In this document: positions 23,649-34,539 of the stretch, in pieces
How the letters are laid out: each line of letters opens with the position of its first letter
Numbering within the stretch: the stretch's first letter is position 1
Assembly (NCBI GenBank): GCA_031269105.1
Contig: JAISZO010000034.1
Span: 1-55,345 of the forward strand
DNA length: 55,345 bases
From: Planctomycetaceae bacterium
GTDB taxonomy: Bacteria; Planctomycetota; Planctomycetia; Pirellulales; Thermoguttaceae
Direction: 5' to 3'
Position numbers and translations under genes: made by a program
The notes under the pieces: generated by a model
What the model saw: only the letters and a program-made list of their open reading frames with translations
What the model was told of the DNA's origin: nothing
The model's database searches: none

Positions 23649-23932
23649 ATTGTTTTCCAAAAAGTTTCCGCAGGAATGTTTTTTCCATGTCAATATTTCA
23701 ACACGTTTACCGCGAAGAATCGCGAAGATTTCACGAAGGATTTTAAAGTTGGGCAAACGATTGTTTCAATCCCAGAGTAACGCATTCTGCTTACGGAATT
23801 TTTCGCTCGTGCCTCCGTGTGAAACATAAAATATCGATTCATCATACTGTCTTTGCGAGTCAAGATTGACGGATTTTATAAGACGTCTTATCTTGTCAAT
23901 CCTGTTCATCTTATCAAAACATAGAAAGTCAA

Positions 23933-24218: not shown

Positions 24219-24679
24219 ATGACGCGAAATATCAGGCAAATCACGGCTCTGCTCTTACTGGCAACATTCGCTCCGGCGATGTTGATTGGTTCGGGATTGC
24301 ACGCGTTGCCCGGGCTTGGTCATCATCATTTTCACGGCGTTTGCCAATCTGAAACAAACAAACAAACAAACAAACAAACAAACAAACAAACAAACAAACC
24401 CAACCGTTTGCAACGGATCATACCGACGTTTGTCAACGTTCCTGCGGGGAAAAACACGAAGCGGAGACGAAACATTTCTCCGCCGTTATTCCCGCCGAAA
24501 AAGACGATAACTGTTCTATCTGCGAGTTTGTATCGCTTTGTCAGAGCGATACTCTTCCAGACGCGCCGGTATTAAAATCCAACGTAGCGGATGATTTCAT
24601 ATCTTTACCCGCCGTTTTCAATATTCTTCAGCGTATTTTCTCTACGCAAAGCCGCGCTCCGCCGATCTCTCTTGCTTAA
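24219..24679 (+). pseudogene. Small secreted Cys/His-rich protein (DUF2946-like) interrupted by an out-of-frame (AAAC)12 tract; possible phase-variable gene
   Basis: N-part MTRNIRQITALLLLATFAPAMLIGSGLHALPGLGHHHFHGVCQSE in one frame. After the repeat, the coherent frame is QPFATDHTDVCQRSCGEKHEAETKHFSAVIPAEKDDNCSICEFVSLCQSDTLPDAPVLKSNVADDFISLPAVFNILQRIFSTQSRAPPISLA*. Confidence 0.7.
24352..24399. repeat. (AAAC)12 tetranucleotide microsatellite
   Basis: 48 bp of perfect AAAC repeats. Confidence 0.97.
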
Positions 24680-24750
24680 TCTATCGTTTTTTGCCACGCC
24701 GCCGACGTTTTACGTCTTCGGTCAATGTAGATATTCAAGCAGAGATTCAA

Positions 24751-24969
24751 ATGGATAGAACCGGCTCTCAACCGATTGTATCGCAAGAGGAAGCATGTTC
24801 GCAGCGTCTGCTCAAAACCTTTCGCGAGCTTTTGTTACACGATGGTTACGGCGACGTCGCAGTTGAAGTCAAGCTCCTCAAACGCGGTCAAAAAGAGGTT
24901 ATCATCAAGTCCGGCAAGCAGTATCGGTATGTCGTTGACGTGCCGGAAAATACGCTGCATAAAGACTAA
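24751..24969 (+). CDS. Hypothetical small protein
   Basis: MDRTGSQPIVSQEEACSQRLLKTFRELLLHDGYGDVAVEVKLLKRGQKEVIIKSGKQYRYVVDVPENTLHKD; in-frame ATG within ORF 24691-24969. Confidence 0.55.
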   Translation: MDRTGSQPIVSQEEACSQRLLKTFRELLLHDGYGDVAVEVKLLKRGQKEVIIKSGKQYRYVVDVPENTLHKD

Positions 24970-24979
24970 TGAATAGATA

Positions 24980-25262
24980 TTTTTCACGCCAAGACGCAGA
25001 AGAATTTCCTCAAACAAAACCTTTGTGACTTGGCGCCTCCGTGTGAGAAATGTTTTATAGATATTTTTTTCACACAAAGGCGCTAAGGCACAGAGACTTT
25101 ATTTCAAAATCCTACCTTTGTGACTTTGTGCCTCCGTGTGAGAAAAAAAATTAAAGTATGACAAGTTAGATATTTTATGTTTCACACAAAGGCGCTGAGG
25201 CGCCAAGATTTTGATTTAGGAATCTTACCTTTGTGACTTTGCGCCTCCATGTGAAATAAAAT
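24980..25262. repeat. Three copies of 'CACACAAAGGC' inverted-repeat family
   Basis: TTTTTCACGCCAAGACGCAGAAG...GACTTGGCGCCTCCGTGTGAGAAA; TTTTTTTCACACAAAGGCGCTAAGGCACAGAG...CTTTGTGCCTCCGTGTGAGAAA; TTTCACACAAAGGCGCTGAGGCGCC...CTTTGCGCCTCCATGTGAAAT. Confidence 0.85.
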
Positions 25263-25482
25263 TTGGCGTCGACTCAAGAAAGGAGGTTTATCGCCGTATT
25301 ACTGTTGCGCCGTCTGTCTGCGAATGTGGGATTCGAGACTTATGTTTTTATTTTGTTTCATTTCCCGTATCCGCCGCCAAAGGAGTTTTGGGGGGATACG
25401 CCAAACTCCGAACAGGGCAATAACAACAAACAACATTAAACTGCTCCTGTTCATTAAAAATTAGAATTAGGAAACAAATGCT

Positions 25483-26472
25483 ATGAGAAAAGCATTTACA
25501 CTTATCGAGCTGCTGATTGTTATCGGCATTCTCGCCGCCCTCGCGGCAGCCGCCCTTCCGATGTTGTCGGTCAACCGTGAGGAAGCCTTGAGCGGCATTA
25601 ACCAGTACAACAAAGGGGCGATCCTCAAAACGCTCAAAGAGTATCAAACGCTCACTGGGAAACTCCCCGAAGGACTGCACACAGGGTTGCAGGACGACGG
25701 TACGACAACGACGTTGATGCCCGGTATCACCGGACAAGTTCTGAAAAATTTCACTGCCAGCGGTGCCAACGGATCAAGGACTTTGAGTACTATTGAAGCA
25801 ACAGCGCTTAGAAGCTTAGGACTTGGACACGTTGCTACAGGGGAAGGCGATAAGGAGGGAGAGGATTATCACGAGGTACTCGGCTATGCACATCCTAACG
25901 AGAACCTCCCATTTCTGGTTGTCAATGAACAGTGGCAAACAGGAAGCGGCGCTCCCTTAACTTTCAACGGTCACAATGTGGAATCTTTGGAAAAGGAAGG
26001 ATACACAAAGGTTATTGCGCTGTATGTGACGCCGACCGTCAACTGGGAAGTGAGCGATGCGACTGGCAATAATGCGGCGTGGACGAAATCCGTGAAGGAA
26101 TTTGGTCTGGACTTTGCCGGAAAAAATCCGCTTGTCGCGGATGACACGTTTGCCTACTACATTGTCTACATTGGAGTTGGCGAGACAGTATATGCGGCGA
26201 CTACAACTCTTACCAATGTTCACCTCCACTCGATGGCAACATTAGCGGATGCCAAAGATGAGGCGGAGGAACATATTACAGACGTTACTGCGTACGAGGA
26301 TGCTGAATTCGCATGGGTTGACGCACCTGATGGTTCAGGTTCTGAGGGAACAGTTACTGACCCTAACAATAATGATGCGTTTCTCGGCACGGTAACTATC
26401 ATGCTTCAACCGGCTGGCACTGCGAAGTTGCTTGGTATTACGGACTCGAATTGCGAGCCGCTTAATCCGTAA
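25483..26472 (+). CDS. Type II secretion/type IV pilus pseudopilin (prepilin-type N-terminal domain)
   Basis: MRKAFTLIELLIVIGILAALAAAALPML. Confidence 0.85.
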   Translation: MRKAFTLIELLIVIGILAALAAAALPMLSVNREEALSGINQYNKGAILKTLKEYQTLTGKLPEGLHTGLQDDGTTTTLMPGITGQVLKNFTASGANGSRTLSTIEATALRSLGLGHVATGEGDKEGEDYHEVLGYAHPNENLPFLVVNEQWQTGSGAPLTFNGHNVESLEKEGYTKVIALYVTPTVNWEVSDATGNNAAWTKSVKEFGLDFAGKNPLVADDTFAYYIVYIGVGETVYAATTTLTNVHLHSMATLADAKDEAEEHITDVTAYEDAEFAWVDAPDGSGSEGTVTDPNNNDAFLGTVTIMLQPAGTAKLLGITDSNCEPLNP

Positions 26473-26524
26473 GGGAAAGAACCTCGCCCCGCAGAACCCC
26501 GCGGGACGAGAGGAAATTCCCGAA

Positions 26525-26612
26525 TCCTTTGTGACTTAGCTCCTTAGTGTGAGAAGTATTTTATAGATATTTTCTCACACAAAGGCGCTGAGCCACAAAG
26601 ATTTTGATTTAG
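26525..26612. repeat. 'CACACAAAGGC' repeat family (partial copies)
   Basis: CCTTTGTGACTTAGCTCCTTAGTGTGAGAAG and TTTTCTCACACAAAGGCGCTGAGCCACAAAGATTTTGATTTAG. Confidence 0.75.
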
Positions 26613-26718
26613 AAAAATAAAGTTGGGGAACGGCGACAGTCAATATTCTCTTGAATTTGTTCTTGATTTTGAGTAGAATAAAAGTCGTTTTATCGGCAGA
26701 ATTTAGGAAAAAACCGCA

Positions 26719-27297
26719 ATGAGACGCGCTTTTACACTTATTGAATTACTGATTGTGATCGGACTGCTCGGCGCATTAGCGGCGATGGTGATGTTAAATC
26801 TGCAAATCGACCGCAAACAAGTGATTGAGGACTCCGTTGTCGTTAAAGAACTGGCGGATATTCAGGCGGCATTTCAAACGTTTGCAGGCGACGTCTCTTT
26901 CAATTCTCATCGGCTGGAGAATTGTCAACTCGTTGCCGAATACGAATTGTCGGTTCTTTTGGAAAATGACGATGACAATTTTGCGGAATGGAATCACGAA
27001 AAGCAAATCGGCTGGAACGGTCCGTATCTCATGGCGGAAGGCAGACGGGTTTTTAATATCGACAATAAGAACCAGGAGTTATCCGTCATTGAAACGCCGG
27101 AATCGGTGAACGAATCCGACGGGCATTATTATCGGGTGATTGCAACGGACGAAGACGGCGATGTTGTCAGTGCTGATAGCAGCGAGATAAAACAATTATG
27201 GGTCGTTTATCCGTTTTGGGGTTCCGGAGATTTCCCTTACCCCAATGTCAATCTGGTCAATGATCAACAGAAAAAACTGATGCGGGAGTTGTTATGA
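26719..27297 (+). CDS. Pseudopilin (prepilin-type N-terminal domain)
   Basis: MRRAFTLIELLIVIGLLGALAAMVMLNLQIDRKQ. Confidence 0.85.
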   Translation: MRRAFTLIELLIVIGLLGALAAMVMLNLQIDRKQVIEDSVVVKELADIQAAFQTFAGDVSFNSHRLENCQLVAEYELSVLLENDDDNFAEWNHEKQIGWNGPYLMAEGRRVFNIDNKNQELSVIETPESVNESDGHYYRVIATDEDGDVVSADSSEIKQLWVVYPFWGSGDFPYPNVNLVNDQQKKLMRELL

Positions 27298-27303
27298 GGA
27301 AAT

Positions 27304-27848
27304 TACTTTATATTTTATGTTTCACACAAAGGCGCCGGCGCCAAGACTTTATAGATACTTTTTTCACACGAAGGTATGCAGAGATTTTGATTTAAGAATC
27401 CTACCTTTGTGACTTGGCGCCTCCGTGAGAAAAGAAATTAAAGTATGACGAGTTAGATATTTTATGTTTCACACAAAGGCACGAAGGCACAGAGGTATAG
27501 AAAATAGGATAAAGTAGATTTTTAGGAAATAAAAAACTCTTTGTATCTCCGTGTGAAAAAGAAAAATATAAAAAGATTTTTCACGCCAAGACGCAGAAGA
27601 ATTTCCTCAAACAAAACCTTTGTGCCTTTGTGCCTCCGTGAGAAAAAAAATTAAAGTATGATAGTTAGATATTTTATGTTTCACACAAAGGCACAGAGGT
27701 ATAAAAAATAGGATAAAGTAGATTTTTAGGAAATAAAAAACTCTTTGTATCTCCGTGTGAAAAAGAAAAATATAAAAGATTTTTCACGCCAAGACGCAGA
27801 AGAATTTCCTCAAACAAAACCTTTGTGCCTTTGTGCCTCCGTGAGAAA
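27304..27848. repeat. Tandem cluster of 'CACACAAAGGC' repeats including a ~200-bp segmental duplication
   Basis: Two near-identical composite units (about 27450-27655 and 27662-27848) sharing TATTTTATGTTTCACACAAAGGCA...GTATCTCCGTGTGAAAAAGAAAAATATAAAA(G)..TTTTTCACGCCAAGACGCAGAAGAATTTCCTCAAACAAAACCTTTGTGCCTTTGTGCCTCCGTGAGAAA. Confidence 0.85.
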
Positions 27849-27998
27849 CAAAATTAGTAATATATCAGCGGAATTTTCGTGAAACGTCGCGTTGGCTGAT
27901 TCACTGACGCCTTACGGCGTCCAACCTTTCGGCGAAAGGTTGGCTACCTTGTCATTTTCAACCATAAAAAAATTTCCGCTGATATATTACCAAAATTA
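27849..27998. mobile_element. MITE-like element (134 bp, 27857-27990) with 8-bp target-site duplication
   Basis: TIRs GTAATATATCAGCGGAA...TTCCGCTGATATATTAC (27857 and 27990 ends), flanked by CAAAATTA (27849-27856) and CAAAATTA (27991-27998), inserted in a 'CACACAAAGGC' repeat linker. Confidence 0.85.
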
Positions 27999-28020
27999 AA
28001 GTATGACGAATAGGTGAAAT

Positions 28021-29022
28021 ATGTTTGCGAATCAGAAACAGAAGGGAATGACGCTCATCGAATTGGTGATTGTTCTCGGTATTCTTGCCGCGCTGGCAGG
28101 AAGCGTGCTGACAATGACCGCTTCGCTCAACGACCGCGCCCGGTACGAAACGACGCGGCGTCGGCTCGACGAAATCGGGATCGCTATCGTCGGCTCTCCA
28201 ACGGAACCGGAAGCAAGCCGTTTTCTCAACGATATGGGACGCTTGCCTATCCAAAAGGTCGGCGACGGAAAAGCGTTGTCCGAACTTTGGGAATGCAACA
28301 GAAAATATCCGGGGGTTGTATCGATGGATTACAACATCGGAACGGTCGCGAATCCGATCTGGCGTCCGATCACGCTGAACGCCGGTTGGCGGGGTCCCTA
28401 CATTCACATTGCCGGGGAAAAATTTTACGACGGTTTCGGATGGGAATTTTATACGGGAACAATGAATGCGAACGCGGATTGGGAAGATAATACGATTGAT
28501 TCCGTCGGAACTTACGGAGCAGACGGAAAAGAAGATAAAGACGACGAAGAAGAAGATACAAGTGTTGAGTGGCAGAATAAGGACGATATACGGATTGATT
28601 TTTCTGATCGGGCGTTGGCGGAATTGACGGTGCAGATTCATGTGAAAGACGGTTCCGGGTGGACGTCGCCAACAAACGCCGACGTGCAGAATGTCGTCGT
28701 TTTTTCCCCTTACGTTGACGAGAACGGCGATGCGTATATACGACAAACGGTTGCAACGAAAGCCGCGTCGGCGGCATGGGCAAAAAGCGATGATGATACG
28801 TGGTTTTCAACTCCCAATAATACTTCTGTTCCTACAATAACAAAACCGGCGCCGGTTATTCTCACCGAACCGAACGAATTGACTTTTTACAAGTTAACGC
28901 CGGGAATACGAAAATTGTTAGTCTATGGAACTTACGGCGACGACAACATGCCGAAGGAGAGCGGCGTGGTAACAATAAAATTACAACGCGGAAGTAATAT
29001 GGTGAACATTTATTTACGGTGA
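28021..29022 (+). CDS. Pseudopilin (prepilin-type N-terminal domain)
   Basis: QKGMTLIELVIVLGILAALAGSVLTMTASL. Confidence 0.82.
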   Translation: MFANQKQKGMTLIELVIVLGILAALAGSVLTMTASLNDRARYETTRRRLDEIGIAIVGSPTEPEASRFLNDMGRLPIQKVGDGKALSELWECNRKYPGVVSMDYNIGTVANPIWRPITLNAGWRGPYIHIAGEKFYDGFGWEFYTGTMNANADWEDNTIDSVGTYGADGKEDKDDEEEDTSVEWQNKDDIRIDFSDRALAELTVQIHVKDGSGWTSPTNADVQNVVVFSPYVDENGDAYIRQTVATKAASAAWAKSDDDTWFSTPNNTSVPTITKPAPVILTEPNELTFYKLTPGIRKLLVYGTYGDDNMPKESGVVTIKLQRGSNMVNIYLR

Positions 29023-29025
29023 GTT

Positions 29026-30423
29026 ATGTTTTTCAGGAACAAGCACAGCAAAGTTGCGGTATTACTTCACGACGGCGGGACGTGGTTTGCGTTTGCGTTC
29101 CGTTTTGAGCGGCGCATTTGGCGGTGTTATGCGCAAACAACGCTGAACGGTAAAAGTCCGCGACGTATTCCGCCGGAGTTGTTGACGTTTGCCGAGACGA
29201 ATCATTGCCTGCGCGTCCGTCTTGTTTTGCCGCGACAGATTCATACATTAACGACGGAATTGCCGCCGGATATTACCGCAGAAGAAATACAGACGTTGCT
29301 CGTTTCAGAGGCGTCGCAGATAACCGGTTCGGAATTTGGTTCGGTGCGCATTGCCGCCGTCAAAGCGGATCATGATTCGATGAGCGGATTGCCGAATACC
29401 ATTTTTGCTGCGGAGTTTGAACAAGCGGCGCTGCAACAGTATCAACAGCAATGTCGGCAGGAACAACTTCGTTTCGACGGCTGCGCGGCGCTGGAATTAA
29501 CGACATTAGCCGTTCATTCGGAAAACACGCCGGAAAAACGGTTTCTTTTTTTACGACAGGAAAGCGGCTTTTACTACGTCGGGGCGTCGGACGTCGACGC
29601 TGAAAACGGGCAACCGACGACTGTCGTCAATATTGCCGTTGGTTCGCAAAACTTCAGTAAACTCCCCGAAAAATCGGAACGTCTTCGCAAACGTCTTGAT
29701 CTGCATAAAAATATTCCAATTGAAGCGGCGCTTTGTTATACGGAAATCGACGAGGAATACAAAGCAAAATTACGAACGCTTGTCAGCGAAGAAACGGAAG
29801 CGGAGTTTATTCGTTTCGCCGACATTGCGGAAGCGGTTGCCCGGCGGGTTGCGGAAATTACCCCGACAAACGAAGACATTTGCCCGCTCGTTTCGCTCGG
29901 CGAAGAAGTCACCGACCCGCATTACGCGGGAACTTATATTTTAGTCGCCTCGTTGCTGATTGCGATTGTGCTTACTGTCGGCGGAAGATGGAAATTGCAG
30001 AATGATTTAAAAATGATTGAAACGCGGGCGGCGGCGTGGAATAAATTGCAGGAAGAACGGAAGAAGGTCAACGACAAGTTAGCGGACATTGACGCGCGAC
30101 GGAGCAAATGCGATAAAGTGATTGCTCTGTTGAATGACAAATCCCGCACACCGCCGGGTTTGATGAAGATATTGACGGAATTGAGTCAAAATATTCCGGC
30201 TTATACAAAGATTGAAGCGATTGAGCAAAAGAACGGACAAGGGAAAAACCTGTTTGAAATCAGAGGACGGACAATCTATCAGGACGGGTTGCTGCAATTT
30301 TGCAGTCAGTTTAACAATGAATTGGCGGGGATTTCCTGCAATTTGGAATTGAAAGAATTTGAGAAAGCGGCAGATAATCCGCGTGAGCAGTTGTTTGTTT
30401 TTTGGGTAAACAGTACGAGGTAA
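29026..30423 (+). CDS. GspL/PilM-PilN-like secretion/pilus assembly protein
   Basis: N-terminal actin-like region, then one TM (AGTYILVASLLIAIVLTVGGRWKL), coiled coil and PilN-like domain; position after pseudopilins and before a GspM-like protein. Confidence 0.6.
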   Translation: MFFRNKHSKVAVLLHDGGTWFAFAFRFERRIWRCYAQTTLNGKSPRRIPPELLTFAETNHCLRVRLVLPRQIHTLTTELPPDITAEEIQTLLVSEASQITGSEFGSVRIAAVKADHDSMSGLPNTIFAAEFEQAALQQYQQQCRQEQLRFDGCAALELTTLAVHSENTPEKRFLFLRQESGFYYVGASDVDAENGQPTTVVNIAVGSQNFSKLPEKSERLRKRLDLHKNIPIEAALCYTEIDEEYKAKLRTLVSEETEAEFIRFADIAEAVARRVAEITPTNEDICPLVSLGEEVTDPHYAGTYILVASLLIAIVLTVGGRWKLQNDLKMIETRAAAWNKLQEERKKVNDKLADIDARRSKCDKVIALLNDKSRTPPGLMKILTELSQNIPAYTKIEAIEQKNGQGKNLFEIRGRTIYQDGLLQFCSQFNNELAGISCNLELKEFEKAADNPREQLFVFWVNSTR

Positions 30424-30425
30424 AA

Positions 30426-31190
30426 ATGCGGGCGTTACGGCGGCAATTACGAATTTGGAAAAATGATTTTCTGTCGGTGTATCTCCGTTTGACAACGTTT
30501 CACCGCACGGTGGTCGGTTTGCTTTTGGCGTTGGCAATGATCATGGCGGCACGGCATTATTGGCTCAATCCGCTGCTGACTGAGATTAAAACGGCAAAGG
30601 ATAAATACGAGGCAAGCAATCCGCCGGATATACTGACAACACCGGAAAACGATGCGGAAATTCAGGACGTTTTGACGAAAATCGAAGGACGCTCCGCAAT
30701 GCTTGAAGAACGGAAAAAAGAAGAAGAGCGGATTGCCAAGAGTAAACAGAAAATCACGCAGCAAAACAAAACCGCCGTCATTTCGCAATTCGGAACGCTG
30801 ATTTTGCAGGAGGATTTACAGTTAATCAATACCCGTCCGGCAACAGTGCCGCCGGTGAAAACTGAAACGCCGAAACCTGAAACCAAAACAAATACAAAAA
30901 AGAAAACCGAATCCGCCGCCTCAAAGACGAAAACGGAGCAAACGCCGACTACTGTCAAACAGAATGTCAACGCGGATATTCCCAGCGAAGCGTATGATTA
31001 TCTGATTGAGGGAGACTACCAAAATATGCTGAAGTTTTTACAAGCGGCGGACAAATTTGAATATCCGGTAAAGATGAACAGTTTCCGCTTGGGATTTCCT
31101 GAAATTGATCCCGGTATCGCGAAGTTGGGCGCGGCGCCTGTGAACCGCCGCTTGCAGTTGAAGTTTCAATTAACTCTGTATTTTTATTAA
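30426..31190 (+). CDS. GspM/PilO-like protein
   Basis: Single N-terminal TM, coiled coil and C-terminal ferredoxin-like segment (YDYLIEGDYQNMLKFLQAADKFEYPVKMNSFRLGFPEIDPG...LQLKFQLTLYFY). Confidence 0.55.
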   Translation: MRALRRQLRIWKNDFLSVYLRLTTFHRTVVGLLLALAMIMAARHYWLNPLLTEIKTAKDKYEASNPPDILTTPENDAEIQDVLTKIEGRSAMLEERKKEEERIAKSKQKITQQNKTAVISQFGTLILQEDLQLINTRPATVPPVKTETPKPETKTNTKKKTESAASKTKTEQTPTTVKQNVNADIPSEAYDYLIEGDYQNMLKFLQAADKFEYPVKMNSFRLGFPEIDPGIAKLGAAPVNRRLQLKFQLTLYFY

Positions 31191-31199
31191 ATCAAGACA

Positions 31200-31430
31200 T
31201 AAAAAGTTTTTCACACAAAGGCACGAAGGCGCAGAGATTTTGATTTAGAATCCGCCTTTGCGACTTGGCGCCTCCGTGTGAAAAAAAATTAAAGTATGAT
31301 AGTAGATATTTTATTTCTCACACAAAGGCACGAAGGCACAAAGGTATAGAAAATAGGATAAAGTAGATTTATAGGAAATAAAAAACTTCTTTGTGACTTT
31401 GCGCGAGAAACAAAAACGATAAAAAGATTT
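31200..31430. repeat. Two 'CACACAAAGGC' repeat copies upstream of the GxxExxY gene
   Basis: TTTTTCACACAAAGGCACGAAGGCGCAGAG...GACTTGGCGCCTCCGTGTGAAAAAAAATTAAAGTATGAT and TTTCTCACACAAAGGCACGAAGGCACAAAGG...CTTCTTTGTGACTTTGCGCGAGAAAC. Confidence 0.85.
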
Positions 31431-31436
31431 CAGTAT

Positions 31437-31820
31437 ATGACAGAAAACGAAATAGGAAAAATTGTTGTTGACGCCTGTTATCATATACACAGAGAATTAG
31501 GACCGGGACTGTTGGAAAAGGTTTATGAAATAATCCTTGCCGACCGGCTGCGTTCCAAGAGATTGTCCGTGCAGCGGCAAGTTGTCGTCCCAATTGTATT
31601 TGACGGCAAACAATTTGAGGAAGGATTTGCGGCAGATATTATCGTTGAGAATAAAGTCATTCTTGAATTGAAATCCATCGAGACCGTCCATCCGGTTCAT
31701 AAGAAGCAATTATTAACATACCTGAGATTGACAGGCATGAAATTAGGATACTTGTTAAACTTTGGCGAAGAGTTAATGAAGACCGGCGTTTCAAGAATTA
31801 TCAACGGCAATTTAGAATAA
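31437..31820 (+). CDS. GxxExxY protein
   Basis: VVDACYHIHRELGPGLLEKVYEIILADRLRSKRLSVQRQVVVPIVFDGKQFEEGFAADIIVENKVILELKSIETVHPVHKKQLLTYLRLTGMKLGYLLNFGEELMKTGVSRIINGN, the canonical family pattern. Confidence 0.95.
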   Translation: MTENEIGKIVVDACYHIHRELGPGLLEKVYEIILADRLRSKRLSVQRQVVVPIVFDGKQFEEGFAADIIVENKVILELKSIETVHPVHKKQLLTYLRLTGMKLGYLLNFGEELMKTGVSRIINGNLE

Positions 31821-31852
31821 CCCTTTGCGCCTTTGCGTGATAAAATTTGTAA

Positions 31853-33304
31853 ATGACGTCCAAACAGCGAATTGATTTAAATAAAGTCGTCGCCTCGCGC
31901 GACGCGCTGAAATCCGTTCCGGCAGTGTTGGCGCGGCGGTTGAAAATTTTGCCGCTTTACATTGCCGATGAAATGCTCTATGTTGTTATGGAAGACGAGC
32001 AGGATGACGTCGCGTTATCACAACTGGAATCAACATTGCCAATGGCGGTGAAGGCGCTACCGGCGCTTGCGCCGGAAAACGTTGTTCCGGCGATTAAACG
32101 TTATTATCCCGATACTGCGGCAACATTCGAAACACCGCTGACAATTTTTGAAGAGATATTACGGCGTGCGCTGCTTTACCGGTGCAGCGATATTCATTTC
32201 GACCCGGAAAAGGAAAATGCGAAAATCCGGCTGCGCATTGACGGCGTGATGCGTGTTGACCACACTTTGCCGCTGTCAACGTGTGCCGAAGTTGTTTCCG
32301 CCGTGAAGGTTGCCGCCGGTCTTGATATTGCGGAACATCGGATTCCGCAGGACGGACAAATGTCGATCAATCCTTATCAGCGTCAACAGGAAAGCGAAGA
32401 GATTTCGATGCGGGTTGCCGTCATTCCGACTCTTCACGGCGAAAAATTAACGATTCGGATTCTTGCCACCGAAGCGATCTCCGCCGAGTTGGCGGACTTG
32501 AATAAAATCGGAATGAGCGATGGACATCACCGTTTATTTATGCAGGCGTTGAGACATTCTTACGGCATTATTCTTTTATCAGGACCGACCGGCAGCGGCA
32601 AGACCACGACTCTTTATGCTGCGCTGCGTCATCTGAAAGCCCCCGGCACGCAGCACATCTTGAGTATTGAAGACCCTGTTGAAATTCCGCTGGACGGCGT
32701 CAATCAGATTCGCATTGACAGTGAGCGAGTGAGTTTCAGCAAGGCGTTGCGGAGTTCGCTGCGGCACGACCCCGATATTATTATGCTCGGTGAAATCCGC
32801 GACAGTGAAACAGCGGATATTGCGGTGAAAAGTTCGCTCACAGGACACCTTGTTTTATCCACGCTGCACGCCAACGATGCGGCGGGAGTGACGACCCGAT
32901 TGCTTAATCTCGGTATTGCTGCGGAACTGATGGCTTCGGCGTTGCGGATTGTCGTTGCGCAGCGGTTAGTTCGTCGTCCGTGTCTGCATTGCGTTCAATG
33001 GGGCAAAGCGTCTGACAAAGATAAGGAGTTGTTTTCGTTTCCTTCCGACGCCCGCGTGCCGATTCCGACCGGCTGTCCGCTGTGCGGCGGGATGGGATAT
33101 GCGGGACGGCTTGGACTTTACGAAATGTTTCCGGTTGACAAACGGATTCGGGAGATGATTCATTCGCACGCTGCGGAATCGGAAATCCGAAGTCATGCGT
33201 TCGAGAAACTCGGCTTAAAAACACTTCAGCAGGACGGCGCCGATAAAATCCTCTGCGGCTTAACAACGCCGGAAGAAGTCAAGCGGGTGACATTTGCAAT
33301 GTAA
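31853..33304 (+). CDS. GspE/PulE/PilB-family type II secretion/pilus assembly ATPase
   Basis: ILLSGPTGSGKTTTLYAALRHL, ILSIEDPVEIPLDGVNQIRID, LRHDPDIIMLGEIRDSETADIAVKSSLTGHLVLSTLHANDA, and a degenerate CxxC zinc module. Confidence 0.95.
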   Translation: MTSKQRIDLNKVVASRDALKSVPAVLARRLKILPLYIADEMLYVVMEDEQDDVALSQLESTLPMAVKALPALAPENVVPAIKRYYPDTAATFETPLTIFEEILRRALLYRCSDIHFDPEKENAKIRLRIDGVMRVDHTLPLSTCAEVVSAVKVAAGLDIAEHRIPQDGQMSINPYQRQQESEEISMRVAVIPTLHGEKLTIRILATEAISAELADLNKIGMSDGHHRLFMQALRHSYGIILLSGPTGSGKTTTLYAALRHLKAPGTQHILSIEDPVEIPLDGVNQIRIDSERVSFSKALRSSLRHDPDIIMLGEIRDSETADIAVKSSLTGHLVLSTLHANDAAGVTTRLLNLGIAAELMASALRIVVAQRLVRRPCLHCVQWGKASDKDKELFSFPSDARVPIPTGCPLCGGMGYAGRLGLYEMFPVDKRIREMIHSHAAESEIRSHAFEKLGLKTLQQDGADKILCGLTTPEEVKRVTFAM

Positions 33305-33312
33305 GAAAGAGA

Positions 33313-34539
33313 ATGCAGTTTCAATATAAAATCAGCACAAAAGGAACAATTCAAACCGGAGTCATTGAGGCGGATAACGCGAACAATGCGGCGGCGACGC
33401 TGCGTCAGCAAGGTATTTTATTGCAGTTGACTCCCGCAGCGTCCCGATCATCTACCGGTAAATCCGCCGCTCCTCTGCGACTGCTGCAAAAGATTTTTCA
33501 TCCGTCTTCCATGCAGCAGGAAATTTATTTGCGGCAACTTTCATTTTTACTCAAAGCCGGCGTTCCGATTTTAACGGCTCTCGAATCAATCTGCGAACAC
33601 GCTCCCAAACGTATTGCCGCAATCTTTGCAAAACTTGCCGACAGAGTCCGCAACGGTTCTTCGATGAAAAAGTCCCTTGAAGAAGAAGCGGCATTTTTCG
33701 GAAATGTTTCTATCGGTCTTATCGGCGTCGGCGAAGCAAACGGAACGCTTGACGAGATGTTCGCTTACGCTTCCGATTTAATGGAACGCAACCGCAATGT
33801 CAAGAATCAGATTCTTCAGGCATTGGCTTATCCCGCCGTAGTGATGTGTGTTGCTCTCGGAATCGCTTATTACATCGTCGCGTATGTTTTGCCGACGATT
33901 ATGTCTTTCATTGCCAAGCAATCGAAGACCGTTGCTTTGCCGCTTTCAACCAGAATGTTGCTTGTGCTGAACGATATTTGCACCCATTATTGGCAATACT
34001 TTCTAATCGTTCCGATTTTTTTGACGGCGGCGTATTTTTTGCTCCGGCGTCATCCGACTGTTGCGGAACGGATTGACTTTGCGATGCTTTATGTGCCGCT
34101 GATCGGTCAGGCAATCCGCGAACATAATAACACGCTCTGGACACGGACGCTCGGAGCATTAGTCCGCAGCGGTATTGATATTACAGCGGCGTTGGAATTG
34201 GTTGCAGGAATGATGAGCAACCGGCATTACGCCGCTCAAATTCAGAAAGTTCGGGGGTCGGTGAAACAGGGAATCTCATTGACAAAAGCGGTTCAGGAAA
34301 CAACGCTGCGGTCTCTCTGTCCGATGTGTTCAACAATGCTCGGCGTCAGCGAAAAGAGCGGCAGTATTGATACTTCGCTGATGCACACGGCGGATTATTG
34401 CGAAGACCGTTTAACGCGGCGTGTTACCTTATTGGGCAAGTTCGTGGAACCGGCGATCTTTGGTTTTGTCGGCGGTTTTGTCGGCTTCATCTATTTTGCG
34501 TTTTTTATGGCGATGCTCGCGGCAACCCGGTCGGTCTGA
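33313..34539 (+). CDS. GspF/PilC-family inner membrane protein
   Basis: EIYLRQLSFLLKAGVPILTALESI and GVGEANGTLDEMFAYASDLMERNRNVKNQILQALAYPAVVM. Confidence 0.93.
   Translation: MQFQYKISTKGTIQTGVIEADNANNAAATLRQQGILLQLTPAASRSSTGKSAAPLRLLQKIFHPSSMQQEIYLRQLSFLLKAGVPILTALESICEHAPKRIAAIFAKLADRVRNGSSMKKSLEEEAAFFGNVSIGLIGVGEANGTLDEMFAYASDLMERNRNVKNQILQALAYPAVVMCVALGIAYYIVAYVLPTIMSFIAKQSKTVALPLSTRMLLVLNDICTHYWQYFLIVPIFLTAAYFLLRRHPTVAERIDFAMLYVPLIGQAIREHNNTLWTRTLGALVRSGIDITAALELVAGMMSNRHYAAQIQKVRGSVKQGISLTKAVQETTLRSLCPMCSTMLGVSEKSGSIDTSLMHTADYCEDRLTRRVTLLGKFVEPAIFGFVGGFVGFIYFAFFMAMLAATRSV

Follow-up and report, generated by a model that had tools for sequence, protein, structure and literature searches.

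The stretch of DNA analysed here (the window; 55,345 nucleotides) carries a GxxExxY gene that is bordered by repeats and inserted in a secretion operon. The features of the locus, and the gene-less hairpins found elsewhere in the window, are as follows.

30426..31190, plus strand: ORF upstream of the GxxExxY gene, gspM-like by position only
31207..31285, no strand: complete hairpin 1, arms at 31207-31236 and 31256-31285, three 8-nt units per arm
31314..31412, no strand: complete hairpin 2, left neighbour of the GxxExxY gene, left arm at 31314-31346, degenerate right arm at about 31385-31412
31437..31820, plus strand: GxxExxY gene, 127 aa, ATG start, PD-(D/E)XK nuclease as predicted by profile, motif and fold
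31810..31837, plus strand: 3' end of the GxxExxY gene plus right arm, in-register match to hairpin 1, suggestive only
31821..31845, minus strand: orphan right arm, starting at the first base after the GxxExxY stop codon
31853..33304, plus strand: downstream neighbour, GspE-type ATPase (PF00437, 371.9 bits)
25066..25148, no strand: gene-less hairpin, same family as the arms at the locus
25178..25262, no strand: gene-less hairpin, same family as the arms at the locus
27465..27556, no strand: gene-less hairpin, same family as the arms at the locus
27578..27645, no strand: gene-less hairpin, variant arms
27677..27762, no strand: gene-less hairpin, same family as the arms at the locus
27780..27848, no strand: gene-less hairpin, variant arms

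The first-pass annotation of this DNA had placed a GxxExxY ORF at 31437-31820, with two repeat copies upstream and a right-half repeat straight after the stop codon, and all of these features were recovered. The gene product matched both family profiles above their cut-offs, each of the two upstream copies proved to be a complete hairpin, and the right half-arm CCCTTTGCGCCTTTGCGTGATAAAA begins at 31821, the TAA stop codon occupying 31818-31820. The same annotation had the gene splitting a gspM-like gene from gspE. This held for gspE, which was identified by PF00437 and is followed by gspF and then by a secretin gene; the gspM-like gene remained a positional assignment, since the upstream ORF gave no match in a Pfam search. 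Hairpin 1 has 30-nt arms that are 80% complementary and enclose a 19-nt loop. The left arm of hairpin 2 is 84% identical to that of hairpin 1, and its loop is common to the hairpins at 27465 and 27677. Because the copy adjoining the gene is itself a complete hairpin, GxxExxY has a full hairpin on its left and an orphan right arm on its right, and does not lie in a simple loop.

The assignment of GxxExxY proteins to the PD-(D/E)XK-like group, also proposed at first pass, was in agreement with the domain match, the conserved D and ExK residues and the predicted fold. The window protein scored 135.8 bits against TIGR04256 (GxxExxY; cut-off, 35) and 134.6 bits against PF13366 (PDDEXK_3; cut-off, 22). 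PF13366 was the only match in a Pfam search, which yielded no Y1 HUH or other transposase domain and no S23p/IVP domain. Residues E27, Y30, D67, E77 and K79 were invariant in alignments of 20 and 43 GxxExxY proteins, from which database copies with stop codons were left out; among the 43 relatives, which came from many phyla, H18 and GPGLLE were also invariant and Q91 was nearly so. The E-D-ExK-Q motif order is that of Cas4/lambda-exonuclease-like PD-(D/E)XK nucleases. The best PDB matches of the predicted structure (pLDDT, 94.5; pTM, 0.88) were Cas4 SSO0001, LHK-Exo and lambda exonuclease, with probabilities of 0.9 to 1.0 and a best E-value of only 0.006, by which these fold matches are weak, and phmmer found no match for the window protein in the PDB. 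Taken together, GxxExxY is predicted with high confidence to be a PD-(D/E)XK nuclease of the Cas4/lambda-exonuclease type. The dN/dS ratio was approximately 0.07 and 0.11 in two same-site orthologue pairs, and the protein is thus under purifying selection. GxxExxY was found in 118 of 250 genomes of the window's phylum and also in many other phyla.

The repeats were then counted against control patterns. With up to three mismatches, CACAAAGGCACNAAGGC occurred 17 times in the window, versus 0.29 expected from shuffles (largest shuffle count, 3), and with up to two mismatches the repeat core was present genome-wide in 47 copies, versus 5 for the reversed control pattern. The abundance of the repeat in the window is not due to chance. 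Besides the locus at 31437-31820, this genome had only one other GxxExxY locus, which is frame-broken, lies on contig 403 (9949-10297) and has a different arm type, CCACGAAGGAACGCGAAGA. Further copies of this second arm type were scattered in the genome: the clearest stood at position 5960 of contig 337, and more degenerate ones on contigs 121 and 205 and at 23710-23740 of the window.

To place the locus in a wider context, the flanks of GxxExxY genes were surveyed in 30 of the best-scoring loci from the 250 genomes of the window's phylum and in 80 named loci from other phyla (Deltaproteobacteria, Bacteroidota, Chloroflexi, Acidobacteria, Cyanobacteria, Verrucomicrobia, Alphaproteobacteria and others). 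In a motif-free test, the 160 bp preceding each gene were compared by alignment with the reverse-complemented 160 bp that follow it, and an inverted repeat was called at scores of 15 or more. Inverted repeats spanned the gene in 64 of 105 GxxExxY loci versus 4 of 135 other ORFs from the same loci (Fisher's test, 4e-25), a comparison made on best-scoring matches rather than a random sample, with mechanically called control ORFs and phylogenetically non-independent genomes. This enrichment relative to other genes supports the layout suggested by the first-pass annotation, namely a "payload plus REP" unit analogous to RAYT/REP, with gene boundaries at repeat halves. Approximately 39% of the GxxExxY loci showed no clear inverted repeat at the sensitivity of the test, which counts against an element model with the arms as substrate of the nuclease.

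The arms consist of tandem 8- or 9-mers, a typical one reading CCAC-AGAG-ACAC-AGAG-ACAC-AGAG. Among 69 GxxExxY arms, the best period was 8 in 39 and 9 in 19. Left arms end a median of 28 nt before the conserved start, and right arms begin a median of 9 nt after the stop codon. Each locus has its own version of the arm, matched left to right: the mean left-right score was 17.0 for the arms of one locus versus 9.0 for arms swapped between loci, the best of 5000 permutations reaching 10.5. Moreover, arm distance tracked protein distance (Mantel r = 0.38; 0 of 5000 permutations), and the correlation held when only between-phylum pairs were scored and the proteins were permuted within phyla (0 of 5000). 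Such co-variation would be expected if the protein reads the arms, or if both always travel together. Around the GxxExxY gene of Hymenobacter daecheongensis DSM 21074, the left and right arms agree without a mismatch for 51 nt, which suggests recent activity in a cultured strain. The arms of the relative in Nostoc sp. 106C also match each other almost perfectly.

Arms of this kind were also found in quantity away from the gene. In the 12-Mb genome G046, the CACGGAG pattern of a sampled GxxExxY arm gave 250 hits and its reversed control none; all 20 hairpins that were read carried the GxxExxY arm, and BLAST aligned them to the GxxExxY unit at up to 100% identity over 34 to 36 nt. Genomes with a CACGGAG-type sampled arm contained more copies than the others (P = 7e-4; n = 5 versus 38), and the analogous test for the octamer family gave a P value of 0.013. 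The association of gene and arms, the layout and the dispersed copies that share the arms are direct observations. Near-identical GxxExxY copies within one genome were absent among the loci fetched, the best pair showing 77% DNA identity and the rest 65% or less. The gene was therefore not seen to amplify repeatedly within a genome, which counts against a nuclease-driven model. To our knowledge, RAYTs likewise have no near-identical gene duplicates within a genome.

At the genome level, at least 8 octamer copies were present in 40 of the 250 genomes, and all 40 were GxxExxY positive. The possibility, raised along with the original proposal, that the repeats might abound where the gene is lacking was not borne out, since none of the 132 GxxExxY-negative genomes had at least 8 copies. 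Repeat-rich genomes also contained four-helix-bundle genes (20 of 21) and Y1 transposases (all 16 checked). Because these other element families are present too, the co-occurrence of octamers and GxxExxY is confounded and is weak support by itself, so that it is the gene-level evidence that counts.

The hairpins might instead be of use to the host, being kept as terminators, RNase III sites or mRNA ends in the manner of 23S rRNA intervening sequences, or GxxExxY might be a housekeeping nuclease that trims cruciforms and lets genomes tolerate palindromes. The position of the arms right at the gene ends, the purifying selection on the protein and the presence of GxxExxY in every one of the 40 octamer-rich genomes would be in concordance with such a role. 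However, the arm mismatches on the coding strand comprised 89 G-U and 94 A-C pairs. RNA pairing would favour an excess of G-U, and A-C was just as frequent; selection for an RNA hairpin is therefore disfavoured. No Rfam match was found within positions 24500-34000 of the window either, and an RNA-level function of the hairpins is unsupported. As for housekeeping, the presence of the gene is patchy, its copies are divergent and empty sites exist, all of which speaks against such a role. We consider host use, in any of these forms, improbable.

Sites with and without the unit were compared between related species, each species being sampled by one genome, so that the unit boundaries are approximate. 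The nearest relatives of the window's GspE are only about 45% identical to it; the empty-site comparisons concern other loci. Between pheS and pheT, one species has an arm-gene-arm arrangement and a congener has an unrelated spacer of about 33 bp without any arm. Among seven congeners compared at groEL-dnaJ, two contain a GxxExxY unit, three show only a short, armless spacer and two have other inserts, the spacer measuring approximately 60 to 100 bp when empty versus 570 bp when occupied. Among six species of one genus compared at argG-argH (L290-L295), two carry different GxxExxY elements, which share 65% DNA identity versus 82 to 87% for the flanking genes. In the other congeners, the argG-argH spacer holds one four-helix-bundle-type hairpin and three other palindromic (REP-type) repeats. 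GxxExxY units and other palindromic elements use the same spacers.

Because relatives have spacers without both gene and arms, and because one argG-argH spacer received two different copies, the gene and its arms behave as one insertable unit. Where the neighbouring genes are co-directional, the GxxExxY gene was in the sense orientation in 55 cases and antisense in 4. The units thus enter operon spacers whole, either in the sense orientation or being retained only so. No target-site duplication was resolved at pheS-pheT, groEL-dnaJ or argG-argH, whose spacers are too diverged between species. At a site in a pilin operon, G112 has the whole unit and its congener G143 has a lone right arm at the orthologous position, which resembles the window's own orphan right arm and may be a deletion scar or a half-element.

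These sites bear on a homing explanation, according to which the hairpins would be an older, independent family and GxxExxY would cut gene-less hairpins and be copied into them by repair, the arms representing the halves of its target. The location of the ORF between repeat halves, the gene-less hairpins of the same family in the same genome and the lone right arm in G143 where G112 holds the whole unit all agree with homing. I-Ssp6803I is a homing endonuclease of the PD-(D/E)XK type, and the genes for such enzymes resemble GxxExxY in being small nuclease ORFs between the halves of a possible recognition sequence. However, the empty sites at pheS-pheT and groEL-dnaJ have no arm at all, and therefore the arms there either arrived together with the gene or have since disappeared completely. 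In addition, GxxExxY was not seen amplifying among the abundant hairpin targets of a genome and, unlike homing endonuclease genes, it occurs at many unrelated sites, has empty sites without the flanking sequence and is associated with no intron or intein. Homing thus seems to us a rather improbable origin.

The same layout was encountered in other gene families. The four-helix-bundle 23S-IVP genes (PF05635) had inverted repeats in 21 of 29 loci, mostly with a period of 7 and of types other than those of GxxExxY. At individual PF05635 loci (L072-L101), matched arms of tandem 7- or 8-mers were seen, for instance of the GTTAGGA, TTCGTAGG and AACACAAG types. From their layout, which is like that of 23S rRNA intervening sequences, these loci appear to be a parallel class of elements. 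The Y1_Tnp genes of the window's phylum (L188-L199, L207 and L209) were bordered, in a TIRtron-like manner, by long inverted repeats compounded of GC-rich REP palindromes. The CxCnnAG unit was present in 55 of 72 GxxExxY inverted repeats versus 2 of 22 of the four-helix-bundle type and 0 of 15 of the Y1-transposase type. Thus, the layout is common to several families, and CxCnnAG arms are specific to GxxExxY among the families tested. Y1/RAYT transposases were rejected as the source of the GxxExxY arms, their own arms being compound REPs that lack the CxCnnAG unit.

It could still be that GxxExxY is a passenger and that other machinery moves gene and arms in trans; candidates would be, for example, a REP transposase of the HUH/Y1 type or a reverse transcriptase together with four-helix-bundle proteins. 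The nuclease would then serve addiction, defence or competitor exclusion, and the arms would be the ends that the foreign machinery recognises. The finding of all these families in repeat-rich genomes is in line with this explanation, as is the fact that the argG-argH spacer holds, depending on the species, a GxxExxY element, a four-helix-bundle-type hairpin or a REP-type palindrome. On the other hand, the compound-REP arms of the Y1 genes are quite different, and the GxxExxY arms co-vary with the protein across phyla, which a passenger would not need. We regard the passenger explanation as unlikely.

The nearest described relatives in layout are the REPtrons and TIRtrons and the intervening sequence of the Coxiella burnetii 23S rRNA. 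In REPtrons and TIRtrons, RAYT (Y1 HUH) transposase genes have REPs or long terminal inverted repeats on either side (PMC3733652). They share with the GxxExxY units a single gene between matched palindromes, dispersed gene-less palindromes, an intergenic location and the absence of observed gene amplification, but the GxxExxY protein is of the PD-(D/E)XK and not the HUH/Y1 type, and its tandem 8/9-mer arms lack the compound GC-rich palindromes of the Y1 genes of the same phylum. The Coxiella sequence contains an S23p ORF, terminal inverted repeats and tandem GACAGAT heptamers by the start codon (PMC4990558). Intervening sequences of this kind (S23p/IVP, PF05635) are similar in size (approximately 0.45 kb), in having one small ORF and in their terminal inverted repeats and tandem short repeats. 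In contrast, GxxExxY encodes a different protein, has an arm period of 8 or 9 instead of 7, shows no sign of pairing selection at the RNA level and, in the window, sits between protein-coding genes of a secretion operon and not in a 23S rRNA helix.

Other systems share less. With Cas4, lambda exonuclease and LHK-Exo, GxxExxY has in common the predicted fold and the order of the motifs, but it is a single domain of 127 aa whose operon in the window holds no phage or CRISPR genes. As with MITEs, gene-less copies share their arms with the gene-bearing copy, which here, unlike in MITEs, encodes no known transposase. The GxxExxY unit also differs from insertion sequences and DDE or HUH transposons in lacking a transposase and in showing no near-identical copies among the loci fetched.

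The location of GxxExxY between mirror-image repeats that are shared with dozens to hundreds of gene-less hairpins suggests a minimal kind of mobile element that has not been described. The likeliest form is a REPtron-like element with a nuclease where REPtrons have the HUH transposase, to which we give about even chances: GxxExxY would cut the arms that flank it, and host replication and repair would see to the remaining steps. The element would consist of GxxExxY and its two arms, in all approximately 0.45 to 0.6 kb, with a single-domain PD-(D/E)XK nuclease as its only gene and arms of tandem 8- or 9-bp units on a CxCnnAG skeleton. It would enter spacers inside host operons, in the sense orientation relative to transcription, and be expressed from the host operon. 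The nuclease would recognise its own arms as a cruciform, as a single-stranded hairpin at the replication fork or as duplex, and cut there, after which host replication and repair would duplicate or relocate the DNA bounded by the arms. Hairpins that have these arms but lack the gene would be carried in trans and accumulate like REPs around RAYTs. We infer that GxxExxY cuts its arms and that this cutting drives spread, and hence also the direction of causation. The suggestion, made at first pass too, that GxxExxY may mobilise or maintain the repeats is compatible with the empty sites, the matched arms, the co-variation of protein and arm and the arms dispersed in trans. PD-(D/E)XK enzymes hydrolyse DNA and are not known to transpose by themselves; a host or foreign partner would therefore be needed, which counts against the nuclease-driven model.

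A broader reading, which we offer tentatively as possible rather than probable, takes the two gene families together. GxxExxY elements would form a new class of prokaryotic mobile elements, in which a PD-(D/E)XK nuclease, without transposase or recombinase, reads modular arms of tandem 8/9-mers and spreads itself and gene-less hairpins by means of host replication or repair; the four-helix-bundle (IVP) genes in tandem 7-mer arms would be a parallel class, with the 23S rRNA intervening sequences as its best-known members. If so, many of the CACAGAG/CACAAAG-type hairpins that abound in bacterial genomes would be traceable to the two classes together. The parallel with the 23S intervening sequences may bear on where those came from.

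A search of the open-access literature retrieved no function for GxxExxY, no matching element and nothing relevant on the repeat sequences, PF13366 or PDDEXK_3, although subscription papers and the notes of the TIGR04256 curators may hold an earlier mention. Two papers name GxxExxY, and the mention that was checked was incidental and concerned a reverse-transcriptase pipeline. The tie between GxxExxY and its own repeats provides a testable function for a widespread, uncharacterised family and probably shows where a common class of so far unexplained bacterial hairpins comes from. Furthermore, the matched nuclease-arm pairs constitute a natural series in which the reading of repeated short units by a small nuclease can be studied.

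Two minor observations concern the hairpins themselves. In the window, the segment 31810-31837, with ATTTAGAAT within the coding end, matches the loop and right arm of hairpin 1 (31243-31270) in register, with 82% identity over 28 nt; this match is a hint, suggestive only, that some hairpins may be internal-deletion derivatives. In G046, some of the copies (L312-L331) have a shared core and differ by extra internal segments, and several hairpins appear to have hairpins of a related subfamily inside them; these segments look like nested insertions.
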